Under the pieces are notes generated by a model, which was not told the DNA's origin, made no database searches, and worked only from the letters and a program-made list of their open reading frames with translations. 64,000 nucleotides of DNA from Streptomyces tirandamycinicus (lineage in GTDB: Bacteria; Actinomycetota; Actinomycetes; Streptomycetales; Streptomycetaceae). A program made the translations under genes and the position numbers. The stretch covers positions 2,099,001 through 2,163,000 of the forward strand of contig NZ_CP029188.1 in the NCBI RefSeq assembly GCF_003097515.1, read 5' to 3'. This document shows positions 5,851 through 18,726 of this stretch, one piece after another. Within the stretch, counting starts at the first letter, position 1. Each line of letters opens with the position of its first letter.

Positions 5851-6099
5851 TCACCGCTCGCTCAGGGTCCGCAGCCACCCGATGACGGCGTTCACCGTCT
5901 GGTAGTCGAGCTCGGCGATCCGGGCCACGGCACGGATGTCGGTCAGCCGCACGGGGAGGCAAGCCGCGTCCAGCGCACAGTGCAGCATCACCTGGTGCGC
6001 CTGTGTCGCCGGCAGGTCCTCCTCCACCCGCAGGCCGGGGCTCAGACAGGCGGAGATGGGCAGCGGCGGTGTCGGGAACAGCGGATGATCCACGCTCAT
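5851..6099 (-). CDS. 82-aa protein of unknown function, coupled to a transposase fragment
   Basis: The protein runs MSVDHPLFPTPPLPISACLS to WLRTLSER. The C-terminal part (VRLTDIRAVARIAELDYQTV onward) looks helical and could be a small DNA-binding or winged-helix-like fold, but no family is recognised. Its ATG overlaps the stop of the truncated IS3 orfB by ATGA, suggesting co-translation. Three Cys residues are present. It is separated from the peptide/M50 operon downstream only by the IS3 remnant, and a role there is speculative. Confidence 0.5.
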   Translation of the reverse strand: MSVDHPLFPTPPLPISACLSPGLRVEEDLPATQAHQVMLHCALDAACLPVRLTDIRAVARIAELDYQTVNAVIGWLRTLSER

Positions 6100-6440
6100 G
6101 GTCGGATGGCCCTCTCGTTCGGGTCCGGAGCCCCGGTGGTGGGGACCGGGTGCGGCGCCGCCTGCCCGCGGAGAGACCCCCGGATGCCCGCCCGCCGCAT
6201 CAGCAGCTGCACCGTCCCGCGGCTGACCGCGATGCCGTGGCGCGAGGTCAGTTCCTCGTGGATGCGGCGGTATCCATAGGTGCCGTTCGACGCGGCATGG
6301 ACGGCGGTGATGACGTCGGTGAGCCAGGAGTGGCGGACGGACCGCGCGGAGGGCGGCCGGGAGCGCCAGGCGAAGTACCCGGACTCGGTCACCCCCAGGA
6401 CGCTCGCGGCGATCCGCACGGGCAGGCCCTCCTGGGCCAT
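6096..6440 (-). pseudogene. Truncated IS3-family transposase OrfB (no catalytic domain)
   Basis: 114 aa. The HTH_21 region typical of IS3-type OrfB is clear: MAQEGLPVRIAASVLGVTES at the start, then NGTYGYRRIHEELTSRHGIA. The protein ends soon after RRAGIRGSLRGQ, before the rve integrase fold that would carry the DDE residues, so it cannot transpose. Its ATG overlaps the orfA stop (TGATG), as in intact IS3 elements. No inverted terminal repeats were found. It is either a decayed insertion or a retained DNA-binding fragment. Confidence 0.8.
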
Positions 6441-6733
6441 CACGCGTACTGCCGCGAACCGTCTTTTGGGGACAGGCCGTCCCGGAGCAACTCGCTCGCG
6501 CGCCGGAGGACGGCGACTTCGGCCTCCAGTTCCGCGATGCGTCTGCGTGCGGAACCGAGTTCGGTCCCGGCGTCGGGCAGGTACCGCTGGTGCCGCGCCG
6601 GCGGCAGGTACCTGCGCCGCCACTGGTAGAGCGTCCGCTCACTGAGGCCGAGGTCGACCGCGACCTTCTTCACGGGCTCGCCCTCGGCCAGCAGGTCGAG
6701 CGCCTGACGGCGCACCTCGGGTGGGTGACTCAT
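6440..6733 (-). CDS. IS3-family transposase OrfA
   Basis: 97 aa and apparently complete. An HTH_Tnp_1 domain (MSHPPEVRRQALDLLAEGEP, then VAVDLGLSERTLYQWRRRYL) is followed by a leucine-zipper-like segment (RRRIAELEAEVAVLRRASEL). In IS3 elements OrfA binds the terminal repeats and is fused to OrfB by frameshifting. Here the partner OrfB is truncated, so the element is a remnant. It sits directly downstream of the M50 operon on the same strand. Confidence 0.85.
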   Translation of the reverse strand: MSHPPEVRRQALDLLAEGEPVKKVAVDLGLSERTLYQWRRRYLPPARHQRYLPDAGTELGSARRRIAELEAEVAVLRRASELLRDGLSPKDGSRQYA

Positions 6734-6905: not shown

Positions 6906-7592
6906 CTAGTCGATGTGGCGCCGCAGGGTGACGGTGGGCCGGAAGTCCCGCAGCGGGTCGACGGACTCGCCGCGCGGCGCGGTGGCGACCGCTTCCCTCA
7001 GCAGGGTCACCACCTCGGCGGCGAGGGAGTCGGTGCGGGCCCTGACGGTGCTGATCGGCTCCCGGCTGCGCTCCAGTTCGCCCAGCCGCCTTTCGAGTCG
7101 CGCGAGTTCGTCCCTGACGGGGCGGCTCAGCGTGAACGAGTACGGGGTGGAGACGATGAACTGGTAGGCGCCGGCGAAGGTCTGGCAGCCCTCGCAGTGG
7201 TCGTTGACCGCGCGGCTGGAGTTCGCGGCGTTGAGGCGGGCGACCGTGCCGGTGACGGTGACGACCTGGAAGGAGAGGGCGACCGAGCGGCACGGCCTGT
7301 CGAGCGAGCAGCCCGCGGACCGGGCGAACGCCCTGTTGCGCGCACCGACGCCGAGGCGTGCCCCGAGTTCACGGACCGCGAACTCGGCGTCGTGGTCGAC
7401 GCGATGGCGTGGGCCGGCGGTCGCGCGCGCCTCGTCCACCACGATGCCGACGTAGCGGTTGCCGGTGGACGCGGACGATGCCGCTCCCGCAGGGCTCGCC
7501 GTGGCGAAGCCGGCCGTACAGGCGGCGACGAGCATGCCGAGCCGTGCGACTCTGCGGCCGCTGTGGCCCTGGCGTGGTTTGCGGTGCGTCAC
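6906..7592 (-). CDS. Secreted Cys-containing protein, last gene of the peptide/M50 operon
   Basis: 228 aa from a GTG preceded by AAAGGAG at good spacing. A signal peptide is clear (RRVARLGMLVAACTAGFATASPAGA). The mature part has two close Cys pairs (AGCSLDRPC and HCEGC) that may form disulfides outside the cell. A charged helical, coiled-coil-like stretch (DELARLERRLGELERSREP) follows near residues 150-205. No family is recognised. It starts 50 bp after the M50 gene on the same strand, so it is probably co-expressed. It could bind, carry or protect the matured peptides, which is inference only. Confidence 0.7.
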   Translation of the reverse strand: MTHRKPRQGHSGRRVARLGMLVAACTAGFATASPAGAASSASTGNRYVGIVVDEARATAGPRHRVDHDAEFAVRELGARLGVGARNRAFARSAGCSLDRPCRSVALSFQVVTVTGTVARLNAANSSRAVNDHCEGCQTFAGAYQFIVSTPYSFTLSRPVRDELARLERRLGELERSREPISTVRARTDSLAAEVVTLLREAVATAPRGESVDPLRDFRPTVTLRRHID

Positions 7593-7642
7593 TGTGTGCT
7601 CCTTTGCTGAGTACGGGAATCGGGGGTCGGGGCGGGCGGGGC

Positions 7643-9493
7643 CTACGGGTCCTCCGTCGCGCTCTGCGACTCCGAGGGCGTCTGCGAGGGCGAGGGGGAT
7701 CCGGACGGTGTCGGGGTCGGCGTCGGTGATGCGCTGGGGCCGGGACCGGCCGACGGTGACCCCGAGGTCCTGCTCGGGCTCGGTGTCGGGCTCGGTGCCG
7801 GGCTCGGTGCGCCGGTCGTCGGCACGTTCCCCGCGGGGGTCGCGGAGGGCGGGGCACCGGCGGTGGGCGTGGCGAGAGCTCCGGCGCCGGGAACCGCCGT
7901 GGGTGCGGTGGTCTTCGGCGGCGGGCTGTCCAGGGCGACCGGGTCCGGCGTGGCGCGGGTGGGGGGCTCCTCCGCCGGGGCCGCCGCCGTGGGGCGGACC
8001 GTGGGAACGCCGGGCTGGAGGATCGGGGCGATGGGCGGCTGCCGCGGCAGCGGTTGCGGGGTCATGCCGGTGAGCCAGGCCGCACACAGCGCGCCCGCTG
8101 CGGCCAGCACCCCGCCGCATACGGCCACCCGCAGCCGGGTGTTGCCCTCGGTGGCACGGGCGGTGGCCTTCATCAGCCGCCCCACCACGCGTACGGCGAG
8201 GTACGCGGCGCCGGCCAGGGGGCAGACGAGCATGAAGCTCCCGACGACCCCGACCAGGCCGGCGGTGATCTCGCCCTCGGCGAAGGCCGACCAGGTACCC
8301 GCCACCTGCTCCGCCAGTGAGCGCAGGCTGGTGCCGAGCAGGCGGGGCAGGTTCCACAGGACGTAGCCGAGCTCGGCGGCGATCAGCGGCACCATGGTCA
8401 CGACCCAGCCGGTGACCATGATCCGCGCGGGGCGCCTGAGCCCGGCCACCTCCGGCGGCAGCGGACGGCCCGGCAGCATGGATCGCAGGATGGGCTTGAT
8501 CTTCCCGAAGAGGTCGGGGATCCCCGCGAGGTCTCCGAGGATGTAGTAGCCGTCCAGCCGTACCACCGGCAGCAGTTGTTCGAGGATCTCGAAGTGCACG
8601 AGGTAGATCGCGGCGAGGAAGAGCGGCTGGCCCGTGAGGACGTACCCCAGGGCGAGACCCAGCACGAAGACGATGTTGAAGTAGATGCCGCCCAGGTCGG
8701 TCCGGATCCGGCCGGCCCGCCCGATGCGGTAGACGTCGGTGACCTCGGTGTACATCGAAGGCCAGATCAGGAAGAGGCCGCATCCGATGCTTCCCGGTCG
8801 CGCGCCGCCGTACCGGCACGCCGACGCGTGCCCGAACTCGTGGAAGACCAGCGAGGCCACGATGAGCACGAAGACGGCGAGCATCAGCACCGGTTGCTCC
8901 AGCACCTGGAGCACCGGGCCGATCGCTCCGTGCACGGCGAAGAGCCAGATGTCCACGCCGAGCGCGGCGATGAGCACCAGGACCACGACCGGAGGCCGGT
9001 GCAGCCAGGCGAGCGCCTTCGCGATACGGGCCACCTGCCGCTCATGGAAGATCACCCGATGGCCCTTGAGGACCAGCAGGAGGTCGGTGGTGGGGCCGGC
9101 GACCCGGTCGTCCTCCTGCCCGAAGGGGACGGTGATGCCGAGCGGTTCGAGCTTCTGCTCGATGAGGTACTCGACGTTGTCGGCACTGACCTCGCGGCCG
9201 TAGCGTCCGCTCACCCGGTGCGAGACGGTCTCGGTGTTCCGTGCGCCGTCGATGGCCTCGGCCACCAGGTAGAGCAGCCGGGAGAGTTGCACCACCTGTC
9301 CGTCCCCGCGGCGGACCAGGTACTTGCGCTCCGTGAAGCCGGATCCCTGGTACTCGCCGAGGAACTGGAGTCCCGCGCCGAGGCGCGGGACGGGGAACAG
9401 CGTCTCCGTGTGTTCGTACGGGTATGGCGTGTCGCCCGTGTCGCAGGCCGCCGCCCCCACGGGACCGGGGTGGACCTTCTGGCTCTTGGTCAC
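7643..9493 (-). CDS. PqqD-like/M50 membrane zinc metalloprotease (peptide maturation/export type)
   Basis: 616 aa from GTG. Residues of about 40-125 resemble the PqqD-like domain of 'putative peptide zinc metalloprotease' proteins (ERKYLVRRGDGQVVQLSRLL and on). Several membrane segments follow. The zinc motif H218EFGH222 lies in one of them (VFHEFGHASACRYGG), and the third ligand is the Asp of RLDGYYILGD about 100 residues later. The C-terminal 150 residues are Pro/Thr/Ser-rich, probably extracellular. Proteases of this type occur in bacteriocin and RiPP clusters, where the PqqD-like part recognises leader peptides. Directly upstream are three small paralogous peptide genes, the likely substrates. 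No radical SAM, cyclase or lanthionine synthetase lies nearby. Confidence 0.85.
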   Translation of the reverse strand: MTKSQKVHPGPVGAAACDTGDTPYPYEHTETLFPVPRLGAGLQFLGEYQGSGFTERKYLVRRGDGQVVQLSRLLYLVAEAIDGARNTETVSHRVSGRYGREVSADNVEYLIEQKLEPLGITVPFGQEDDRVAGPTTDLLLVLKGHRVIFHERQVARIAKALAWLHRPPVVVLVLIAALGVDIWLFAVHGAIGPVLQVLEQPVLMLAVFVLIVASLVFHEFGHASACRYGGARPGSIGCGLFLIWPSMYTEVTDVYRIGRAGRIRTDLGGIYFNIVFVLGLALGYVLTGQPLFLAAIYLVHFEILEQLLPVVRLDGYYILGDLAGIPDLFGKIKPILRSMLPGRPLPPEVAGLRRPARIMVTGWVVTMVPLIAAELGYVLWNLPRLLGTSLRSLAEQVAGTWSAFAEGEITAGLVGVVGSFMLVCPLAGAAYLAVRVVGRLMKATARATEGNTRLRVAVCGGVLAAAGALCAAWLTGMTPQPLPRQPPIAPILQPGVPTVRPTAAAPAEEPPTRATPDPVALDSPPPKTTAPTAVPGAGALATPTAGAPPSATPAGNVPTTGAPSPAPSPTPSPSRTSGSPSAGPGPSASPTPTPTPSGSPSPSQTPSESQSATEDP

Positions 9494-9560
9494 CGTCCTG
9501 CACTTCCTCCCGGAGCGGGCCGCGCCCCCGAGGACGCGGCCCGCACAGGTCCGGGCGTTG

Positions 9561-9776
9561 TTACTGGCTGATCGTGATGGTCTGGTTGGCCTCGGAGACC
9601 GCGATGGCGTCCGGGGAGTCGACGTTGGCCGCGAGCGACTCGTTGTGGGCGTCGACGTAGGCGATGCGCTCGCTCACGTTCGAGGTCCTGACGAAGTTGA
9701 ACCGGAGCCGGCCCAGGGCCTCCCGCCCGGGCAGCAGCTCCGCGGCGGCCTCGGCGTTGAGCTGGTCGTTGTTCAT
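9561..9776 (-). CDS. Putative precursor peptide 3 of the M50 operon
   Basis: 71 aa. It shares with its two neighbours an almost invariant N-terminal block (EAAAELLPGREALGRLRF, then SERIAYV and AHNESLA) and differs mainly in the last 20 residues (NVDSPDAIAVSEANQTITIS plus Q). A conserved leader with a variable tail is the usual layout of ribosomal peptide precursors. The C-terminus alternates Thr/Ser with Ile. It has no signal peptide and no Cys. It ends 67 bp before the M50 gene. The precursor role is inferred from context. Confidence 0.75.
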   Translation of the reverse strand: MNNDQLNAEAAAELLPGREALGRLRFNFVRTSNVSERIAYVDAHNESLAANVDSPDAIAVSEANQTITISQ

Positions 9777-9806
9777 GGTGGAACCCCTCTCGGTTGGCAG
9801 CGCCGG

Positions 9807-10022
9807 CTACTGGCTGACGCTGATGGACTGGGCGGCGGACGAGGCCGCCACGGCGTACGGGGAGTGGATGTTGGTCGCGAGCGACTCGTTGTGGGCGCTG
9901 ACGTAGGCGATGCGCTCGCTCACGTTCGAGGTCCTGACGAGGCCGAACCGGAGCCGGCCCAGGGCCTCCCGCCCGGGCAGCAGCTCCGCGGCGGCCTCGG
10001 TCTCGAGTTCTTCGACGTTCAT
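9807..10022 (-). CDS. Putative precursor peptide 2 of the M50 operon
   Basis: 71 aa, starting MNVEELETEAAAELLPGREA. Its tail is the most diverged of the three (NIHSPYAVAASSAAQSISVS plus Q). It lacks the acidic residues present in the others and carries His and Tyr. Spacing to both neighbours is about 30 bp, and a purine-rich GAGAGGGA lies upstream of the ATG. Like its paralogues it is probably a leader-plus-core peptide matured by the adjacent M50 protease. Confidence 0.75.
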   Translation of the reverse strand: MNVEELETEAAAELLPGREALGRLRFGLVRTSNVSERIAYVSAHNESLATNIHSPYAVAASSAAQSISVSQ

Positions 10023-10051
10023 GGGGGATCCCTCTCGGAAGGAAGCGCCGG

Positions 10052-10270
10052 CTACTGGCGGACGCTGATGGACTGGTTGGCCTCGGAGGCCGCGATGGCG
10101 TCCGGCGAGCAGACGTTGGCCGCGAGCGACTCGTTGTGGGCGTCGACGTAGGCGATGCGCTCGCTCACGCTGGTGGTCCTGACGAAGTTGAACCGGAGCC
10201 GGCCCAGGGCCTCCCGCCCGGGCAGCAGCTCCGCGGCGGCCTCGGCGTCCAGTTCTCGCATGCCAAGCAT
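10052..10270 (-). CDS. Putative precursor peptide 1, first gene of the M50 operon
   Basis: 72 aa from the ATG at 10270, chosen because AAAGGA lies about 8 bases upstream; an internal ATG at 10261 is the alternative. It shares the EAAAELLPGREALGRLRF block. The tail runs NVCSPDAIAASEANQSISVR plus Q, and only this copy has a Cys there. Upstream, 65 bp from the start, is a long spaced motif also found before the XRE regulator gene at 12851. The operon order is peptide 1, 2, 3, M50, secreted protein. Confidence 0.75.
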   Translation of the reverse strand: MLGMRELDAEAAAELLPGREALGRLRFNFVRTTSVSERIAYVDAHNESLAANVCSPDAIAASEANQSISVRQ

Positions 10271-10576: not shown

Positions 10577-10867
10577 GGGTGAACCGCCCGAAACCTCCGC
10601 GAGAGGGGTGCCCGTGCTTGTCGTCCCAGGAGCGCTCGCGACCGCCGTGGTCCGCGACAGGACCGGGGAGCCGGTGGTGCTGCTGTCCGGCGAACTCCCC
10701 TCCGCCCTCACCCCTTCCGGCGTCGACGAACTGCTCAACCTGGCCGCCGCCGTACTCGAGGCGGAGGAGCTGGAACTCTTCCGGCGCTGCCTCGCGGCAC
10801 TGCGCTGCGGCGAGAAACTCCGGGAAACCCGTATCGAGGTGAGCGGAGCCGTACTGACCATCTACCG
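10577..10867 (+). repeat. Left arm of a 291-bp inverted repeat
   Basis: This arm is the reverse complement of 11797-12087 with a single mismatch (GTCCGC here, GTCCGT there), which is silent in the encoded protein. The repeat begins about 37 bp before the likely start of the small gene and ends just before its last codons, so almost the whole gene is duplicated. Confidence 0.95.
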
Positions 10868-10874
10868 GAGCTGA
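10614..10874 (+). CDS. Small protein of unknown function, inverted-repeat copy A
   Basis: 86 aa from a GTG with GAGAGGGG five bases upstream. It starts MLVVPGALATAVVRDRTGEP, has a Leu/Ala/Glu-rich helical middle (VDELLNLAAAVLEAEELELF) and ends RIEVSGAVLTIYRS. Two Cys occur in FRRCLAALRCGEK. No family is recognised. The first 84 residues are identical to the product of 11778-12050 on the opposite strand; only the tail differs. Identical protein from a recent duplication suggests recent copying or ongoing gene conversion. Confidence 0.6.
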   Translation: MLVVPGALATAVVRDRTGEPVVLLSGELPSALTPSGVDELLNLAAAVLEAEELELFRRCLAALRCGEKLRETRIEVSGAVLTIYRS

Positions 10875-11369: not shown

Positions 11370-11690
11370 GTGAGAAAACTCGCACGCGTCTTTGCCACGG
11401 CCGCGCTGGCCGTGACCGCCGGCGTCATTCCCATGACGGGCACCGCCATGGCCGCCGCACCGGCCCATTCGGCCGTCGGCGCATACCAGTTCCACGGCGT
11501 GGACCGGTGCGCCGACCTCGGCCGGCGGTACGTCGCACTCCACACCTGGGACCGCCACCGCGCCCGGTGGGACCGCGACTGCCGCCACCGCTGGGAGCGC
11601 CGTCTGGTGCACCGGTCGCACTGGTACGACGCCTACGGGAGGTACCGCAGCCACGCCGGATACGCCGGGGACTGCGGACACCGCTACTGA
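11370..11690 (+). CDS. Small secreted His/Arg/Tyr-rich protein
   Basis: 106 aa from a GTG preceded by CCAGGAGAAG. The signal peptide (VRKLARVFATAALAVTAGVI through AMAAAPA) is typical of Streptomyces. The mature 70-75 residues contain three Cys (RCADLG, DCRHRW, DCGHRY) and many His/Arg/Trp/Tyr residues (RDCRHRWERRLVHRSHWYDA). No family is recognised. It lies alone between the arms of the 291-bp inverted repeat, so it would flip if the arms recombined. Confidence 0.7.
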   Translation: MRKLARVFATAALAVTAGVIPMTGTAMAAAPAHSAVGAYQFHGVDRCADLGRRYVALHTWDRHRARWDRDCRHRWERRLVHRSHWYDAYGRYRSHAGYAGDCGHRY

Positions 11691-11777: not shown

Positions 11778-12050
11778 TCAACCGGACTGCCCGTCACGGT
11801 AGATGGTCAGTACGGCTCCGCTCACCTCGATACGGGTTTCCCGGAGTTTCTCGCCGCAGCGCAGTGCCGCGAGGCAGCGCCGGAAGAGTTCCAGCTCCTC
11901 CGCCTCGAGTACGGCGGCGGCCAGGTTGAGCAGTTCGTCGACGCCGGAAGGGGTGAGGGCGGAGGGGAGTTCGCCGGACAGCAGCACCACCGGCTCCCCG
12001 GTCCTGTCACGGACCACGGCGGTCGCGAGCGCTCCTGGGACGACAAGCAC
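11778..12050 (-). CDS. Small protein of unknown function, inverted-repeat copy B
   Basis: 90 aa. Residues 1-84 equal copy A at 10614-10874, and the end differs (IYRDGQSG). The start GTG is chosen by matching copy A. Its upstream region (12051-12299) contains CGTCCAATCTGTCCG at about 12183, related to the CTGTCCAAT block upstream of the XRE and peptide operons. Function is unknown. Confidence 0.6.
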   Translation of the reverse strand: MLVVPGALATAVVRDRTGEPVVLLSGELPSALTPSGVDELLNLAAAVLEAEELELFRRCLAALRCGEKLRETRIEVSGAVLTIYRDGQSG

Positions 12051-12299: not shown

Positions 12300-12851
12300 T
12301 CAGCCGGTGCCGGTGCGGGGGTTCGTTCCGGCGGCGGTGCCGGGGTCGGATCCGGAGACGGGGCGGGGGGTGGTGTCCGCGCGGGTGCCGGGGTCGGTGT
12401 CGGTGTCGGTGGCACCGGCGTCGATGTCCGTGCCGGTGCCGGTGTCGGTGGCGTCGATGTCCGTGCCGGTGCCGGTGCCGGGTCCGTGGGTGTTGCGCAG
12501 GAGGGATTCGACGAGTGCGGTGACGTGCCGGCGGTCGGCGGGGGAGAGTCGCCGGACGCTGGCGATGAGGGTGGCGACCTCGGGGTCGGCGGTGGCGCCG
12601 GGGGGCTCCTCGAAGTAGAGGTGGATGCCGCAGGCCTCGGCCGCCGCCCTGCGTACGGTCTCCAGGGGGAGTTCCAGTCCGCGGGCGAGGCCCTCCAGGG
12701 TGGTCTGCTGCGGCATCCGGGTGACCCGTTCGGCGGTGGCCAGATGGTGCACGGTGGAGCGCGGGACACCGCCGCGCCGGGCAACCTCGCCGTAGGACCA
12801 GCCCCGCTGCTCCAGCCGGCTCTTCACCAATTCCCGCAGTGCGTTGGCCAC
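12300..12851 (-). CDS. XRE-family helix-turn-helix regulator with repetitive tail
   Basis: 183 aa from a GTG with GGGAGA upstream. Residues 5-60 form an HTH_3 domain (LEQRGWSYGEVARRGGVPRS, then TVHHLATAERVT). A segment resembling an effector or dimerisation helix follows to about residue 125 (LSPADRRHVTALVESLLRNT). The last 55 residues are low-complexity GTGTGTDIDATDTGTGTDID-like repeats that look disordered. It probably controls nearby genes, since its upstream region carries the same spaced motif as the peptide operon. Confidence 0.8.
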   Translation of the reverse strand: MANALRELVKSRLEQRGWSYGEVARRGGVPRSTVHHLATAERVTRMPQQTTLEGLARGLELPLETVRRAAAEACGIHLYFEEPPGATADPEVATLIASVRRLSPADRRHVTALVESLLRNTHGPGTGTGTDIDATDTGTGTDIDAGATDTDTDPGTRADTTPRPVSGSDPGTAAGTNPRTGTG

Positions 12852-13544: not shown

Positions 13545-15488
13545 ATGACGTCGACGCCGACCGGCGCCCGGCCGCAGGACGACGACCCTTCCCGGACCAC
13601 GCAGCTTCGGGTTCCCCCGCAGCTCAGGACCGGAGGCCACCGGTTGCGCCCCAAGAAGGCGCTGCCGAGGTACGACTACGAGCACTACAGCCGGCTGGCC
13701 GGTCCCCTGACCCAGCCGGACCCGTCGAGACCGTACCGGGTGCAGTACCGCTCGCTGCTGTCGCAGGAGCCGCACCGCGTCCGGGCCGCGCTGCTCCTCG
13801 GCGCCGCGCCGCTGGTCTCGCTGGGCCTGTTCGCCTGGCTGATGCAGCCGCAGCACTGGACCGAGCGCGACCCCAACCTCGACAACGAGCTGCTGCTCTG
13901 GCTCGACGTCGTCATGCTGGTGTCGATCGGCCTGATCGAGCTCTTCCGCACGATGAACGTCCTGTCGAACGCGCACGCGACCCTCGTCGCGCGCGACCCG
14001 ATACCCGTGGTGCCGGAGTCCGGCACCCGCGTCGCCTTCCTCACCTCCTTCGTGCCGGGCAAGGAGCCCCTGGAGATGGTGACGAAGACGCTCGAGGCGG
14101 CCGTGAAGATCCGCCACCGCGGACTGATGCACGTGTGGCTGCTCGACGAGGGCGACGACCCGGCCGTCAAGGAGGTCTGCGCACGGCTCGGCGTCCACCA
14201 CTTCTCCCGCAAGGGCATAGCCAAGTGGAACCAGGAGAAGGGCGCCCACCGGGCCAAGACCAAGCACGGCAACTACAACGCCTGGCTCGAGGCGCACGGC
14301 GGCGACTACGACTTCTTCGCGTCCGTCGACACCGACCACGTACCGCTGCCGAACTACCTGGAGCGGATGCTCGGGTACTTCCGCGACCCGGACGTCGGCT
14401 TCGTGATCGGCCCGCAGGTCTACGGCAACTACGACACCTTCGTCACCAAGGCCGCCGAGTCCCAGCAGTTCCTCTTCCACGCCCTGATCCAGCGCGCCGG
14501 CAACCGCTACGGCGCCCCCATGTTCGTCGGCACCTCCAACGCCGTGCGCATCAGCGCCATCAAGCAGATCGGCGGCCTGTACGACTCGATCACCGAGGAC
14601 ATGGCGACCGGCTTCGAGATGCACCGGGCCAAGAACCCGGCCACCGGCAACAAGTGGCGGTCCGTCTACACCCCGGACGTGCTGGCCGTCGGTGAGGGCC
14701 CGTCCGCCTGGACCGACTTCTTCACCCAGCAGCTGCGCTGGTCCCGCGGCACCTACGAGACGATCCTCAAGCAGTACTGGAAGGGCTTCGGCACCCTGCC
14801 GGCCGGCAAGCTCTTCAACTACACCATGATGATCATCTTCTACCCGATGTCGGCCCTCAACTGGATCCTGGCGGCGCTCAGTTGCGCGCTGTTCCTGGGC
14901 ATGGGCGCCTCGGGTGTGCAGATCGACCCGGCCGTCTGGATGATGCTGTACGGCAACGCCTCAGCCCTTCAGATCGGCCTCTACATCTGGAACCGCCGCC
15001 ACAACGTGTCGCCCCACGAGCCCGAGGGCTCCGGCGGCCTGGCCGGCATGGTGATGTCCGCGCTCTCCGCACCGATCTACGCACGCTCCCTGATGGACGC
15101 CGTACTGCGCCGCAAGAGCAAGTTCGTGGTGACGCCCAAGGGCGACTCCTCCAGCCCGGACACGCTCTTCGGCACGTTCCGCATCCACCTCTTCTTCATC
15201 CTGATCTTCGGCGGCTCGCTCGCCTCCTCGTTCTGGTTCGGGCACGACCATCCGGCGATGATCACCTGGGCCGGTCTGGCCCTGCTGATCACCGCGGCGC
15301 CCATCTTCGCCTGGCGACACGGCATCCGCGAGGAGAAGAAGAAGCGGCGGGGGCGGCGCCGTGCGAAGCCGGGGACGGGCGGCGGGGCCTCCGAGGCCGT
15401 GCCGCCGGCCGCCCATGAGCAGCAGCCGCAGCAGTGGGCCCCCGCGGACCAGACCATGCAGATCGCCCTTGGGGGACGTAAGAAATGA
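13545..15488 (+). CDS. cslA: Cellulose synthase-like glycosyltransferase CslA
   Basis: 647 aa from the ATG at 13545, chosen because GGGGGGA lies about 10 bases upstream; the ATG at 13536 is almost on top of that ribosome site. Membrane helices flank a cytosolic GT2 domain. The processive-synthase motifs are present: DEGDD (about residue 201), DTDHV (about 262), TED (about 350) and QQLRW (about 395), followed by several C-terminal helices and a basic tail. CslA polymerises a beta-glucan at Streptomyces hyphal tips and works with GlxA. The stop overlaps the glxA start by ATGA, so the two are coupled. Confidence 0.95.
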   Translation: MTSTPTGARPQDDDPSRTTQLRVPPQLRTGGHRLRPKKALPRYDYEHYSRLAGPLTQPDPSRPYRVQYRSLLSQEPHRVRAALLLGAAPLVSLGLFAWLMQPQHWTERDPNLDNELLLWLDVVMLVSIGLIELFRTMNVLSNAHATLVARDPIPVVPESGTRVAFLTSFVPGKEPLEMVTKTLEAAVKIRHRGLMHVWLLDEGDDPAVKEVCARLGVHHFSRKGIAKWNQEKGAHRAKTKHGNYNAWLEAHGGDYDFFASVDTDHVPLPNYLERMLGYFRDPDVGFVIGPQVYGNYDTFVTKAAESQQFLFHALIQRAGNRYGAPMFVGTSNAVRISAIKQIGGLYDSITEDMATGFEMHRAKNPATGNKWRSVYTPDVLAVGEGPSAWTDFFTQQLRWSRGTYETILKQYWKGFGTLPAGKLFNYTMMIIFYPMSALNWILAALSCALFLGMGASGVQIDPAVWMMLYGNASALQIGLYIWNRRHNVSPHEPEGSGGLAGMVMSALSAPIYARSLMDAVLRRKSKFVVTPKGDSSSPDTLFGTFRIHLFFILIFGGSLASSFWFGHDHPAMITWAGLALLITAAPIFAWRHGIREEKKKRRGRRRAKPGTGGGASEAVPPAAHEQQPQQWAPADQTMQIALGGRKK

Positions 15489-17437
15489 GCGCACTTCCCG
15501 TCCGGCCGAACCACCGCAAGAACCGGGCCCGACGGATCCTGATCGGCGCGGCGGTCGTGGCGGCGATCGCCGGGTTCAACGGACCCGCGATGTACCGGTA
15601 CGGCTCGGAGCAGTACCACGAGTACAAGATCGACCGGCCCGAGTACAAGGCGGCGAACGGCCGCTGGGACCTCCTCGACGTCCCCGCCGAGTACAAGATC
15701 AACACGATCCACGCGGCCCTGCTGCACACCGGCAAGGTGCTGCTGATCGCGGGCTCCGGCAACAACCAGAAGAACTTCGACGCCAAGAAGTTCGAGTCGG
15801 TGCTGTGGGACCCGGAGACGAACGAGTTCACGCACATACCCACGCCCAAGGACATGTTCTGCGCCGGGCACACCCAGCTGCCCGACGGCAAGCTGCTGGT
15901 CGCGGGCGGCACCAAGCGCTACGAGAAGCTCGAGGGCGACGTCACCAAGGCCGGCGGCCTGATGATCGTCCACAACGAGGACCCCGACAAGCCGATCACC
16001 CTGCCCGCGGGCACCAGGTTCACCGGCAAGGAGAACGGCAAGACCTTCGTCTCCAAGGACCCGGTCCTCGTCGAGAAGGCGAAGAAGGTCTTCGACAAGA
16101 AGACGGGCCGCTTCCTGCGGACCGAGGCGGGCCTCGGCCGGATCTACGTCGAGGCCGAGAAGTCCGGCAAGCGGTACGAGACCGGCACCGAGGACAACTA
16201 CCGGGTGCACGGCCTGCAGGGCACGGACAACCAGAACGTCTACGGCATCGCGCAGAAGCTCGCCCTCGACAAGAAGGACTTCCAGGGCATCAAGGAGGCC
16301 TACGAGTTCGACCCGGTCGCGGAGAAGTACATCACCGTCGACCCCATGAACGAGGCCCGCTGGTACCCCACGCTCACCACGCTCGAGGACGGCAAGGTCC
16401 TGTCCCTGTCCGGACTGGACGAGATCGGCCAGATCGTCCCCGGCAAGGACGAGATCTACGACCCGAAGACGAAGAAGTGGGAGTACACCGGCTTCGAGCG
16501 GCGCTTCCCGACCTACCCCGCGATCTTCCTGATGGACAACGGGAAGCTCTTCTACTCCGGCTCCAACGCCGGGTACGGCCCCGCGGACGTGGGCCGCGAC
16601 CCCGGGGTCTGGGACCTGGACACCAACACGTTCACCAAGGTCCCCGGGCTGAGCGACCCGGACCTGATGGAGACCTCGGCGACGGTGATGCTGCCGCCCG
16701 CCCAGGACCAGCGGTTCATGGTCATCGGCGGCGGCGGGGTCGGCGAGTCCGAGAAGTCCAGCGAGAAGTCCCGGCTGGTCGACCTGAAGGACCCGAAGCC
16801 GCGCTTCAAGGACGGCGCCTCGCTCGACAAGGGCACCCGCTATCCGAGCGCCTCGCTCCTGCCGGACGACAGCGTGCTGGTCACCGGCGGCTCCGAGGAC
16901 TACCGGGGCCGCAGCGGGTCCAACGTCCTGGAGGCGCGCACCTACGACCCGAAGACGGGGAAGTACACGCGGGTCGCCGACCCCCGGGTCGGCCGCAACT
17001 ACCACTCGGGGTCCGTGCTGCTGCCCGACGGCCGTGTGATGATCTTCGGCTCGGACTCGCTCTTCGGTGACGACGCCAACACCAAGCCCGGTGTCTTCGA
17101 GCAGCGCATCGAGATCTACACCCCGCCCTACCTCTACCGGGACTCGCGACCGGAGATCGGCGCCGGACCCAAGAAGATCGAGCGCGGCGGTTCGGCGACG
17201 TTCAAGAGCCCGGACGCGGCGAAGCTGGCCTCGGCGAAGCTGATGCGGCCCAGCGCCGTGACGCATGTGACCGATGTCGACCAGCGCTCCATCGCGCTGG
17301 AGATGAGGAAGACGGCGGACGGTTTCACGGTCACCGTGCCCGAGAACCGGTCCCTGGTCCCGTCCGGCTGGTACATGCTGTTCGTGACGGACGACAAGGG
17401 CACCCCGTCCGAGGCGGTCTGGGTCGAGGTCCCGTAG
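15485..17437 (+). CDS. glxA: Copper radical oxidase GlxA (galactose-oxidase-like)
   Basis: 650 aa with one N-terminal membrane anchor (ILIGAAVVAAIAGF). The seven-bladed kelch-type propeller and C-terminal Ig-like domain of galactose oxidase relatives follow. Visible active-site residues are Cys126 (DMFCAGH, the cross-link cysteine), Trp293 (NEARWYP), Tyr506-His507 (GRNYHSG) and His594 (AVTHVTDVD), the expected copper ligands. GlxA acts outside the cell on the CslA product, producing hydrogen peroxide and enabling glycan deposition at the tip. GGGGGA at seven bases supports the start. A strong terminator follows. Confidence 0.95.
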   Translation: MSALPVRPNHRKNRARRILIGAAVVAAIAGFNGPAMYRYGSEQYHEYKIDRPEYKAANGRWDLLDVPAEYKINTIHAALLHTGKVLLIAGSGNNQKNFDAKKFESVLWDPETNEFTHIPTPKDMFCAGHTQLPDGKLLVAGGTKRYEKLEGDVTKAGGLMIVHNEDPDKPITLPAGTRFTGKENGKTFVSKDPVLVEKAKKVFDKKTGRFLRTEAGLGRIYVEAEKSGKRYETGTEDNYRVHGLQGTDNQNVYGIAQKLALDKKDFQGIKEAYEFDPVAEKYITVDPMNEARWYPTLTTLEDGKVLSLSGLDEIGQIVPGKDEIYDPKTKKWEYTGFERRFPTYPAIFLMDNGKLFYSGSNAGYGPADVGRDPGVWDLDTNTFTKVPGLSDPDLMETSATVMLPPAQDQRFMVIGGGGVGESEKSSEKSRLVDLKDPKPRFKDGASLDKGTRYPSASLLPDDSVLVTGGSEDYRGRSGSNVLEARTYDPKTGKYTRVADPRVGRNYHSGSVLLPDGRVMIFGSDSLFGDDANTKPGVFEQRIEIYTPPYLYRDSRPEIGAGPKKIERGGSATFKSPDAAKLASAKLMRPSAVTHVTDVDQRSIALEMRKTADGFTVTVPENRSLVPSGWYMLFVTDDKGTPSEAVWVEVP

Positions 17438-17502
17438 ACCGTCCGGGGCGGCCGACCGGACAGCGGCCGGCCAGCCGGACATCGGACAGCCGGACTGCAG
17501 AT

Positions 17503-17533
17503 GAAGGGGGCTCCCGCGGCGGGAGCCCCCTTC
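17503..17533. terminator. Terminator between convergent glxA and cellulase genes
   Basis: GAAGGGGGCTCCC (17503-17515) pairs perfectly with GGGAGCCCCCTTC (17521-17533) around a GCGGC loop. The symmetric hairpin can serve both converging genes. Confidence 0.8.
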
Positions 17534-17589
17534 GTCCTTCGTCCCTCGTCGCTCGTCGCTCGTCCTTCTTCGCGAGCTCGGCTGCTCGG

Positions 17590-17718
17590 GGTCGCGGGCG
17601 AGGCGGCACGCCGCGCGGTGCCGCGGACCGGATCAAGCGCCGCGGTGCTGCGGACCGGCTCGAACGCCGCGCGGTGCCGCGGGCCGGATCGAGCGCCTCG
17701 CGCTGACGCGCGCCGGCT
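17590..17718. repeat. Imperfect tandem repeats downstream of glxA
   Basis: About four units of roughly 30 bp, built on GCCGCGCGGTGCCGCGGACC followed by GGATCAAGC-like ends, lie between the terminator and the cellulase stop. A CGTCGCTCGTC microrepeat precedes them. They have no coding support. Confidence 0.6.
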
Positions 17719-17724
17719 GGAGCG

Positions 17725-18726
17725 CTACTCGGTGTTGCGGGCCAGTTCGAGCGCGTACTCCGGGTACCAGTCGCCGGCCTTGGGGCCGCCCTTGCAGTCA
17801 CCGTCGGACTCCCCCGGCCGCTTCACCCACAGATAGGCGTCGACGAGGGGGTCGCCGGTCTTGGTCGTGGGTTCCTCGCCGAGGGCGCGACCGGGCGGGT
17901 TGCACCAGTTCTCCTTGGGATCGCCGCCGGTGTAGGGCCCGTTGCCGTTGCGGCTGGTGTCGATCACATAGTGCTTCCCGCCGACCTTGGCGGAGAGCGC
18001 GTGGCCGAAGTCCTTGCTGGCCTCGGTCGTCTGGAAGTTGGAGACGTTGACCGCGAAGCCGTCCGCCCCGTCGATACCGGCCCTCCGCAGCGGGCCGGGC
18101 AGGGAGTCCGGGTTCGCCCAGCCCGCGTTGCCCGCGTCCAGGTAGACCTTGGTGGCGGGAAGTCGCTTCAGCCGCTCGATGGCCCCCTTCAGCAGGTCGT
18201 ACCGCTCCTGGTGGTACTGCTGCGGGGTGCAGCCGTCGACCAGGTGCAGCACGGCGTCGGGTTCCAGCACGACCGTGGCCCGGCGGTCGCCGATGCCCTC
18301 GGCCACCTTGTCGACCCAGGCGCGATAGGCGTCGCCGTCGGACGCGCCGCCCTTGGAGAACTGCCCGCAGTCCCGGTGCGGGATGTTGTAGAGGACCAGC
18401 AGGGCGTCGCGGTCGGCCTTCTCGGCGGCCTCCGTGTAGCGCTTCGCCTCGCCCTCGGGGTCCTCGGGCCCGATCCACTCCCCCACCGGCTGGGCCGCGA
18501 TCTTCTTGATCAGTTCGGCCCTTGTGGTGTCGCCGTCGTCGAGGTACGACGCCACCTGCTTCGCGGCGTTGCCCTCGGGGTTGACCCAGTAGGGGTCCGT
18601 CGCCTTGGGCTGCTGGGCCGCGGGCCTGTCGCCTTCGCCGTCCGCGGAGGAACACCCCGCGACGAGCAGGACGACCCCCACCGCGGCCGCCGTCCATCGG
18701 GCGCGCCCGACTCGACTGCCGTACAT
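17725..18726 (-). CDS. cslZ: GH6 endoglucanase lipoprotein of the csl locus
   Basis: 333 aa. The lipoprotein signal ends in a lipobox (VLLVAGCSS), so the enzyme is tethered outside the membrane. The GH6 fold is shown by VVLEPDAVLHLVDG (catalytic-region Asp) and VIDTSRNGNGPYTGG with ENWCNPPGRALG. GH6 enzymes hydrolyse beta-1,4-glucan with inversion. Next to cslA-glxA it probably trims or releases the nascent glycan. It is transcribed towards glxA. The start is the ATG at 18726, with GGGGGAGCGG just upstream. Confidence 0.9.
   Translation of the reverse strand: MYGSRVGRARWTAAAVGVVLLVAGCSSADGEGDRPAAQQPKATDPYWVNPEGNAAKQVASYLDDGDTTRAELIKKIAAQPVGEWIGPEDPEGEAKRYTEAAEKADRDALLVLYNIPHRDCGQFSKGGASDGDAYRAWVDKVAEGIGDRRATVVLEPDAVLHLVDGCTPQQYHQERYDLLKGAIERLKRLPATKVYLDAGNAGWANPDSLPGPLRRAGIDGADGFAVNVSNFQTTEASKDFGHALSAKVGGKHYVIDTSRNGNGPYTGGDPKENWCNPPGRALGEEPTTKTGDPLVDAYLWVKRPGESDGDCKGGPKAGDWYPEYALELARNTE

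Follow-up and report, generated by a model that had tools for sequence, protein, structure and literature searches.

A candidate leader-guided intramembrane protease system for small, putatively beta-forming peptides in Streptomyces and other Actinomycetota

Daptide clusters of the Actinomycetota encode the protease MpaP, in which a recognition element (RRE) of ribosomally synthesized and post-translationally modified peptides (RiPPs) is fused N-terminally to an intramembrane site-2 protease, together with a mean of 2.3 precursors per cluster, which carry the motif ELExMEAP and an invariant C-terminal Thr, and modifying enzymes (PMC10036551). In epipeptide systems, both cleavage and export of a small peptide are ascribed to an M50 protease (EpeP/YydH/LiaK; PMC10885120), and a radical SAM enzyme carries out the epimerisation (PMC7026026). 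Regarding surface peptides, the chaplins and rodlins of Streptomyces are small, secreted and beta-forming, with several paralogues (PMC3079736, PMC5314377). Here, we describe a five-gene cassette of Streptomyces tirandamycinicus encoding, in order of transcription on the minus strand, peptides A, B and C, an M50 protease and a secreted protein termed SEC. It occupies positions 6906-10270 of the window, by which we mean the whole stretch analysed, 64,000 nucleotides at positions 2099001-2163000 of the complete 7.29 Mb genome, with a G+C content of 72.7%.

The cassette is like daptide clusters in its RRE-fused intramembrane protease, its short precursors (usually two or three here), their conserved N-terminal motif and its occurrence in Actinomycetota, and MpaP is the nearest known protease. 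Unlike in daptides, the motif reads ELLPxREAL and the C-terminal residue is Gln (ELExMEAP and Thr in daptides), the core has a two-strand pattern common to a secreted or fused partner, and the protease is homologous to the daptide family yet below its line (83.9 bits with NCBIfam daptide_HExxH, NF041824, cut-off 300). No family of the MpaB, MpaC, MpaD or MpaM type was general by gene clustering around 42 cassette loci of the genus, dedicated profiles not having been run. Epipeptide systems share an M50 protease acting on a small peptide; the window protease, however, scores 47.8 bits with the YydH/LiaK equivalog (cut-off 225), and no radical SAM epimerase was recognised among the cassette neighbours, where no dedicated search was made. 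Curli, with a main subunit (CsgA) and a related minor partner (CsgB), and Fap amyloids resemble the cassette in their way of working only, through short repeats, alternate Asn, Ser, Gln and Ala and a related minor partner, whereas the cassette peptides would be processed by way of a leader and M50. The same holds for chaplins and rodlins, which are likewise small beta-forming surface peptides in multiple paralogous copies; the window peptides have no Pfam chaplin match, and we know of no M50-processed leader in either group. An RRE-recognised leader with a separate core, the general mark of RiPPs, is present at the level of sequence (RRE profile match, reuse of the leader). On these comparisons we class the system as a variant of RRE-M50 leader processing rather than with the daptides, epipeptides, curli or chaplins.

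Peptides A, B and C matched no Pfam or NCBIfam family, apart from a chance-like viral Pfam family at E 0.12, and neither they nor SEC had a Pfam, PHROG or NCBIfam match of weight. Sequence searches of solved structures returned nothing significant (best E 0.97 for the peptides, 0.11 for SEC and 0.92 for the protease). No description of the leader and core motif strings or of the gene set was found in open-access literature, and the main text of PMC12710340 does not contain the terms M50, metalloprotease or amyloid. The view that this exact gene set belongs to no described class, taken from this DNA alone in the original prediction, agrees with what was found, and the peptide block likewise turned up in no described family. 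The same prediction had placed here three paralogous peptides of 71-72 residues, a PqqD-like M50 protease and a secreted protein with four Cys, and all five genes were confirmed at that place on the minus strand. A GA-rich ribosome-binding-like stretch precedes the start of each of the three peptide genes. In six of six orthologue comparisons with two related genomes, nonsynonymous substitution (dN 0.013-0.089) was lower than synonymous substitution (dS 0.056-0.163; for peptide A and its orthologue in locus L033, 0.013 and 0.095), so that the argument for translation of the small genes is one of coding statistics. A search of the whole genome returned exactly these three peptides (E<=0.001) and one M50 protease of this family (E<=1e-20), and the closest named match of the peptides among the matches listed was from Streptomyces sp. 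I6 (96% identity).

The protease of the window has the active-site motif HEFGH. It lies below the Pfam cut-offs (M50 model 11.1 bits versus 27.2; no match to the PqqD model), and Pfam PqqD was matched only below threshold, in two of ten M50 N-terminal fragments. The predicted PqqD-like domain was nonetheless recovered with hhalign when 11 M50 N-terminal regions were aligned with 18 PqqD domains of related genomes (P-value 3.7e-7, score 38.2; highest score among 60 column shuffles, 17.4). The leader that this RRE would recognise is strongly conserved: L6, E9, A12, E13, L14, L15, P16, R18, E19, A20 and L21 (numbered, like the alternation pattern below, by peptide C) are invariant in 49 aligned peptides.

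Peptides and protease occur together. A search of 295 genomes of the genus found relatives of peptide C in 38, the match in G173 being weak, and in the 42 loci compared, which cover the peptide matches, the M50 gene accompanies the peptides in 41, the exception (L074) being the weak match. SEC was found in 36 of the 42, the other six being L074 and five loci in which M50 lies at the edge of the retrieved sequence or close to it. A scan of 84,980 species genomes with one leader pattern, in which 93 stretches passed, left at least 79 loci; of the 79 listed, 59 are at least 15 kb long; M50 and SEC were both present in 56 of these 59, so the finding of peptides mostly lacking an M50 neighbour, named beforehand as a possible refutation, was not made. 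The other three long loci (L110, L117 and L126) are each centred on a single peptide copy, and the contig of L110 is that of L040, where M50 adjoins a second peptide copy about 8 kb away. Among 72,556 plasmid records, one, a mobilizable plasmid, carries the peptides.

The leader can also be found apart from this core. In a leader-only profile search of 291 genomes, with a gap between E 3.2e-10 and 1.4e-3, all strong matches lay at loci known from the peptide C search except for one peptide in L189, a genome of the genus Streptomyces, in which the leader stands ahead of a His/Pro-rich peptide of 60 residues. An orphan leader peptide lacking M50 was ruled out here by a 45-residue remnant of the M50 N-terminus directly 3' of it (E 4.2e-14; peptide and remnant at 8998-9413 of the locus). 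SEC was not found in 18 kb, and the locus is a cassette in decay. Streptacidiphilus jiangxiensis (L121) has a second operon on the opposite strand, with its own M50 and a protein of 192 residues in which the leader LLPGREAL is followed by DRGHDRGG repeats. As these two strains carry the leader before unrelated cores, the leader is modular. The leader-protease logic is well supported by these alignments and gene neighbourhoods. The original prediction of leader-core precursors with a processing enzyme holds as regards a leader-guided, co-conserved M50-RRE and a modular leader, and is not supported as regards a natural-product RiPP with variable cores, against which stand the constraint at alternate residues, a core sequence common to SEC and multi-repeat expansion elsewhere.

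Regarding the core, the first two thirds of the peptides, described at first as invariant, are 71-79% (residues 1-28) and 82-91% (29-50) identical in pairs; the last 20 or so residues do differ, with 52-71% identity over 51-71, yet retain invariant alternate residues. Columns A43, N45, S47, A49, N51, S54, S61, Q65, I67 and Q71 are invariant in the 49 aligned peptides, A39, A59 and A63 are conserved at 90% or more, and every one of the 49 homologues ends in Gln. After clustering of the homologues at 85% identity (32 sequences), information content averaged 4.15 bits at odd versus 2.48 at even positions of 39-51 (permutation p 8e-4) and 4.02 versus 2.08 bits in 57-71 (p 1.8e-4). This alternation looks like the pattern of two beta strands with one fixed face (A, N, S, Q and I), and because the alternate residues are so strictly constrained, the C-termini are not free in sequence.

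SEC has an N-terminus judged by eye to be signal-peptide-like, and its four Cys are invariant in 25 aligned sequences. Its AlphaFold2 model (mean predicted local distance difference test score, pLDDT, 77.9; good confidence outside residues 1-44) has strands 81-92/102-114 and 119-130/137-149 among others, and two helices. A peptide hidden Markov model (HMM), run against 2194 gene-called proteins (129 loci and the window, with the window SEC present twice under two starts), gave 24 non-peptide matches at E<=1, all 24 of them SEC (one being a joint M50-SEC open reading frame (ORF) in L120), and 72 at E<=10, 65 of them SEC; the alignment of profile positions 30-67 to SEC residues 109-146, the second SEC repeat, is ungapped. 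The core-SEC hhalign score of 21.5 was reached in none of 200 full column shuffles (maximum 16.5) and in none of 200 shuffles separating odd and even positions (maximum 18.4). By these measures the peptide core is detectably homologous to the SEC repeats. One distant SEC weakly matched bindosome_BasB (E 0.02), which we took as chance.

Relatives of the protease extend well beyond Streptomyces. The peptide profile found relatives in 27 of 293 genomes of the order (four of nine genera) and in nine of 345 of the class, and the M50 profile in 53 of 340 genomes and 20 of 124 genera of the class (E<=1e-20) and in 24 of 296 genomes and 18 of 198 genera of the phylum (E<=1e-15), with weak matches in G321 (5e-24), G013 (9e-23) and, as a second match, G513 (1.6e-17). 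From these, 34 mostly better-scoring distant loci were taken (20 of the 53 class and 14 of the 24 phylum genomes). Profiles detected substrates in 27 of the 34, in 24 on the same strand and at most 1.5 kb upstream of M50; those of L309 and L312 are on the opposite strand, and in L266 the substrate ORF overlaps. Among the remaining loci, L250 is cut by a contig end. Distant substrates carry an LPx[RK]E leader and are typically two to five peptides (e.g., ...EELPDREAMSLINANLAAPVNAAVALNVLSDSSTAYANAEQTAIINQST in L253) or, alternatively, one protein of 212-387 residues with more than one core unit. Their core register is A.A.N..S..S.A.A.A.Q...I.Q, that of the window type S.A.N..S..A.A.S.A.Q.I.I.Q, and HMMs of the two families match each other in both directions (best E 5.4e-6 in 279 proteins; in the other direction, E 3.2e-7 for a streptomycete-type cassette peptide in 2473 proteins, outscored only by substrates of this system).

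Nine of the 34 distant loci have a separate SEC, and in 14 the M50 ORF carries the SEC domain as its C-terminal portion (E-values for SEC over the whole ORF, 2e-12 to 1e-4). Since SEC and M50 are joined in one ORF there, this is strong evidence that SEC functions together with the protease, a cooperation that would take place outside the membrane. Beside these, a 703-residue ORF of Streptomyces sp. DHE7-1 (L120, 9299-11410) joins M50 and SEC via a Pro/His/Thr-rich stretch and may be either a genuine fusion or an artefact of the reading frame, and a lipoprotein-like protein of about 250-270 residues follows SEC in the distant cassettes L250, L252, L253 and L309. A C-terminal MinD/ParA-like ATPase domain, not SEC, is found on the M50-RRE proteins of L183 (6334-8625, assigned by NCBIfam) and L184 (5983-8277, assigned by the motif KGGVGKTT). 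Four distant loci beyond the 27 with substrates detected by profile, L262-L265, have LLPER/LLPDR-type leader peptides among their gene calls, and the M50-RRE loci L262-L264 and L269, with LLPER/LLPDR leaders, have a separate core class of GNNSPVNSPGSNN type.

The conserved gene set, the RRE, the modular leader, the strand-like alternation, the core-SEC homology and the SEC-protease fusion are read directly from the sequences, and on this footing we propose, with a probability of about 0.5, a system in which an intramembrane protease, guided by a leader, sets small beta-forming peptides free at the cell surface. The leader at the peptide N-terminus (L..E..xELLPxREAL) would dock on the RRE domain of M50, the HEFGH active site would cut it off, and the C-terminal half of the peptide would be passed outwards as a pair of beta strands with Ala, Asn, Ser, Gln and Ile at fixed places along one face. 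Released cores would stack with one another and with SEC, which, as two repeats of the core unit held by disulfides, could act as nucleator, cap or docking platform and in other families is part of the protease itself. We advance only tentatively, at short of even odds, the wider proposal of an undescribed surface-assembly pathway throughout the phylum, in which the RRE-M50 protein would be leader peptidase and exporter of self-stacking beta-repeat subunits, with cores from about 33 residues to long multi-repeat proteins, and a fused or adjacent SEC of the same repeat would template their assembly.

Several results weigh against this proposal of released beta-forming peptides. The AlphaFold2 model of peptide C, with helices 3-12 and 17-23 and strands 40-50 and 60-70, is of low confidence (mean pLDDT 61.5); against the window SEC, the peptide HMM reaches a single-domain E-value of only 3.3e-4 at best, and the hhalign probabilities of peptide versus SEC are low (11.7 and 16.5%). 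Pfam includes curlin and chaplin models, and neither was matched at E<=1 by the window peptides and SEC or by five relatives. Foldseek searches with the SEC model returned FapC at E 0.33 and CsgA at E 5, neither significant, and VIA-align gave no Z of 5 or above. SEC was not found in 11 of the 34 distant loci, some of them on cut contigs, and no substrate was seen in L311 or L315. The cassettes have no dedicated exporter in common: in 17 of the 42 genus loci a pair of ABC transporter genes lies nearby, in one shared block. Substrates lacking the beta core in L262-L265, in the second operon of L121 and in L189 indicate that no single kind of core goes with the protease. The steps that we infer are binding, cleavage together with its site, export, the disulfides, self-assembly, secretion and a role as surface fibre or coat.

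One alternative is a conventional RiPP pathway, in which antimicrobial precursors would either receive modifications from an enzyme whose gene lies elsewhere or just be trimmed by M50, with SEC as an immunity or accessory protein. We consider this unlikely, though deserving of attention: the RRE, leader and M50 logic is that of daptides and epipeptides, several paralogous precursors are present, and the occurrence is patchy, in the 38 genomes of the genus and on the single mobilizable plasmid. A 4-hydroxybenzoate 3-monooxygenase gene directly follows SEC in 12 of the 42 loci, but it belongs to a shared block, and its product scores 633 bits (cut-off 351), as an ordinary catabolic enzyme would. 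When all called genes around the 42 cassettes, window included, were clustered, the only families in 36-42 loci were M50, XRE, a small protein, the peptides and SEC, and no modifying-enzyme family was general. Ten families (F5-F13, and F14 in 12 loci) recur in 17 loci as one chromosomal block that includes a cyclopropane-fatty-acid-synthase-like protein, the ABC transporter ATPase and permease, and a thiolase; because other cassettes lack these families, the block is taken as local synteny, and its genes may have a role in those 12 to 17 loci. In L037, L040 and L041 two peptides lie 6-8 kb apart, and the stretch between them in L037, examined by eye, holds transposase-like, XRE and sigma-factor-like genes and proteins of unassigned function, with no likely modifying enzyme. 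A core constrained at alternate positions and common to SEC would moreover be unusual for competing antimicrobials. In other families, substrates expand to repeat proteins of 200-390 residues.

We regard as improbable a discrete rather than polymerising product, in which the core would serve as a structural carrier, or as a module that binds glycan, metal or a surface, and would form a folded complex with SEC at the membrane. The SEC-M50 fusion would put SEC beside the protease, the alternative cores are rich in His, Asp or Pro, and the window cassette adjoins a cslA/glxA locus (13545-18681, beyond the regulator; a cellulose-synthase-like gene, the GlxA copper radical oxidase and GH6). The last point carries little beyond the window, since cslA/glxA neighbours the cassette in only two of 130 other loci, for which reason a general functional link was dropped, and the long repeat-rich substrates suggest stacking instead. 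Similarly improbable is peptide signalling, in which M50 would set free a peptide whose sensor is SEC or, alternatively, the neighbouring XRE regulator with the small protein. Release of pheromones by M50 proteases is known, and XRE and the small protein were each detected by profile in 41 of the 42 genus loci (the window and the 41 loci with M50; the clustered XRE family had included three antisense artefacts of peptide genes), or for the small protein in 40 by clustering, the contigs lacking a profile match to one or the other, L034 and L056, being 6.6 and 3.3 kb long. By profile, however, each was found in none of the 34 distant loci, which indicates that both belong to the streptomycete form only; XRE has only a helix-turn-helix (HTH) domain in Pfam, and repeat expansion and a conserved core are unlike specific pheromones.

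Coordinates of the cassette and of the genes accompanying it are given in Table 1.

Table 1. Features of the cassette and associated genes in the window
Feature	Position	Strand	Description
Peptide A	10052-10270	-	72 residues; leader ELLPGREAL and putative beta-pair core, one Cys (NVCSP), C-terminal end ...SISVRQ
Peptide B	9807-10022	-	71 residues; leader and core type as peptide A; no Cys
Peptide C	9561-9776	-	71 residues; leader and core type as peptide A; no Cys
RRE (PqqD-like) and M50 intramembrane metalloprotease	7643-9493	-	616 residues, GTG start; Pro/Ser/Thr-rich C-terminal tail
SEC	6906-7592	-	228 residues, GTG start; two core-like beta repeats, four invariant Cys, helical pair
Small conserved protein	10608-10874	+	About 86-89 residues, start uncertain; divergent from (opposite to) the peptides; profile match and gene clustering
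Second small conserved protein, near-identical copy	11778-12017	-	
XRE/HTH regulator	12300-12851	-	HTH_3 E 1.2e-6; accompanies the cassette in Streptomyces

Domain searches of ten neighbouring window proteins detected SPFH, peptidoglycan-binding, cellulose synthase, GlxA, GH6, sortase, HAD, ROK and LPMO domains, with one protein lacking a match, and no RiPP-type modifying enzyme among the ten, in line with what had been read from this DNA at the outset. Directly downstream of SEC (5851-6733) lie IS3-type orfA and orfB pieces and a gene for an 82-residue protein; relatives of these genes are present near 8 to 11 of the 42 cassettes, which suggests that the cassette may travel with, or may have captured, an IS3-like element. 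A small Trp/Tyr/Arg/Asp-rich, Cys-containing protein, similar by eye, is encoded near the cassette in the window (11433-11690) and in L037, L110, L117 and L126.

To our knowledge, every description of a leader-guided RRE protease concerns a natural-product pathway that includes modifying enzymes. The RRE recognition logic appears here to act on structural substrates made of beta repeats, across many families of Actinomycetota, and the leader-protease pair seemingly accepts very different cores. The LPx[RK]E leader and the SEC signature are handles for finding more such systems. If the proposal is true, the cassette would provide a route of secretion and assembly for surface fibres or coats that needs no dedicated transporter, and it would account for small genes that carry no Pfam or NCBIfam name.

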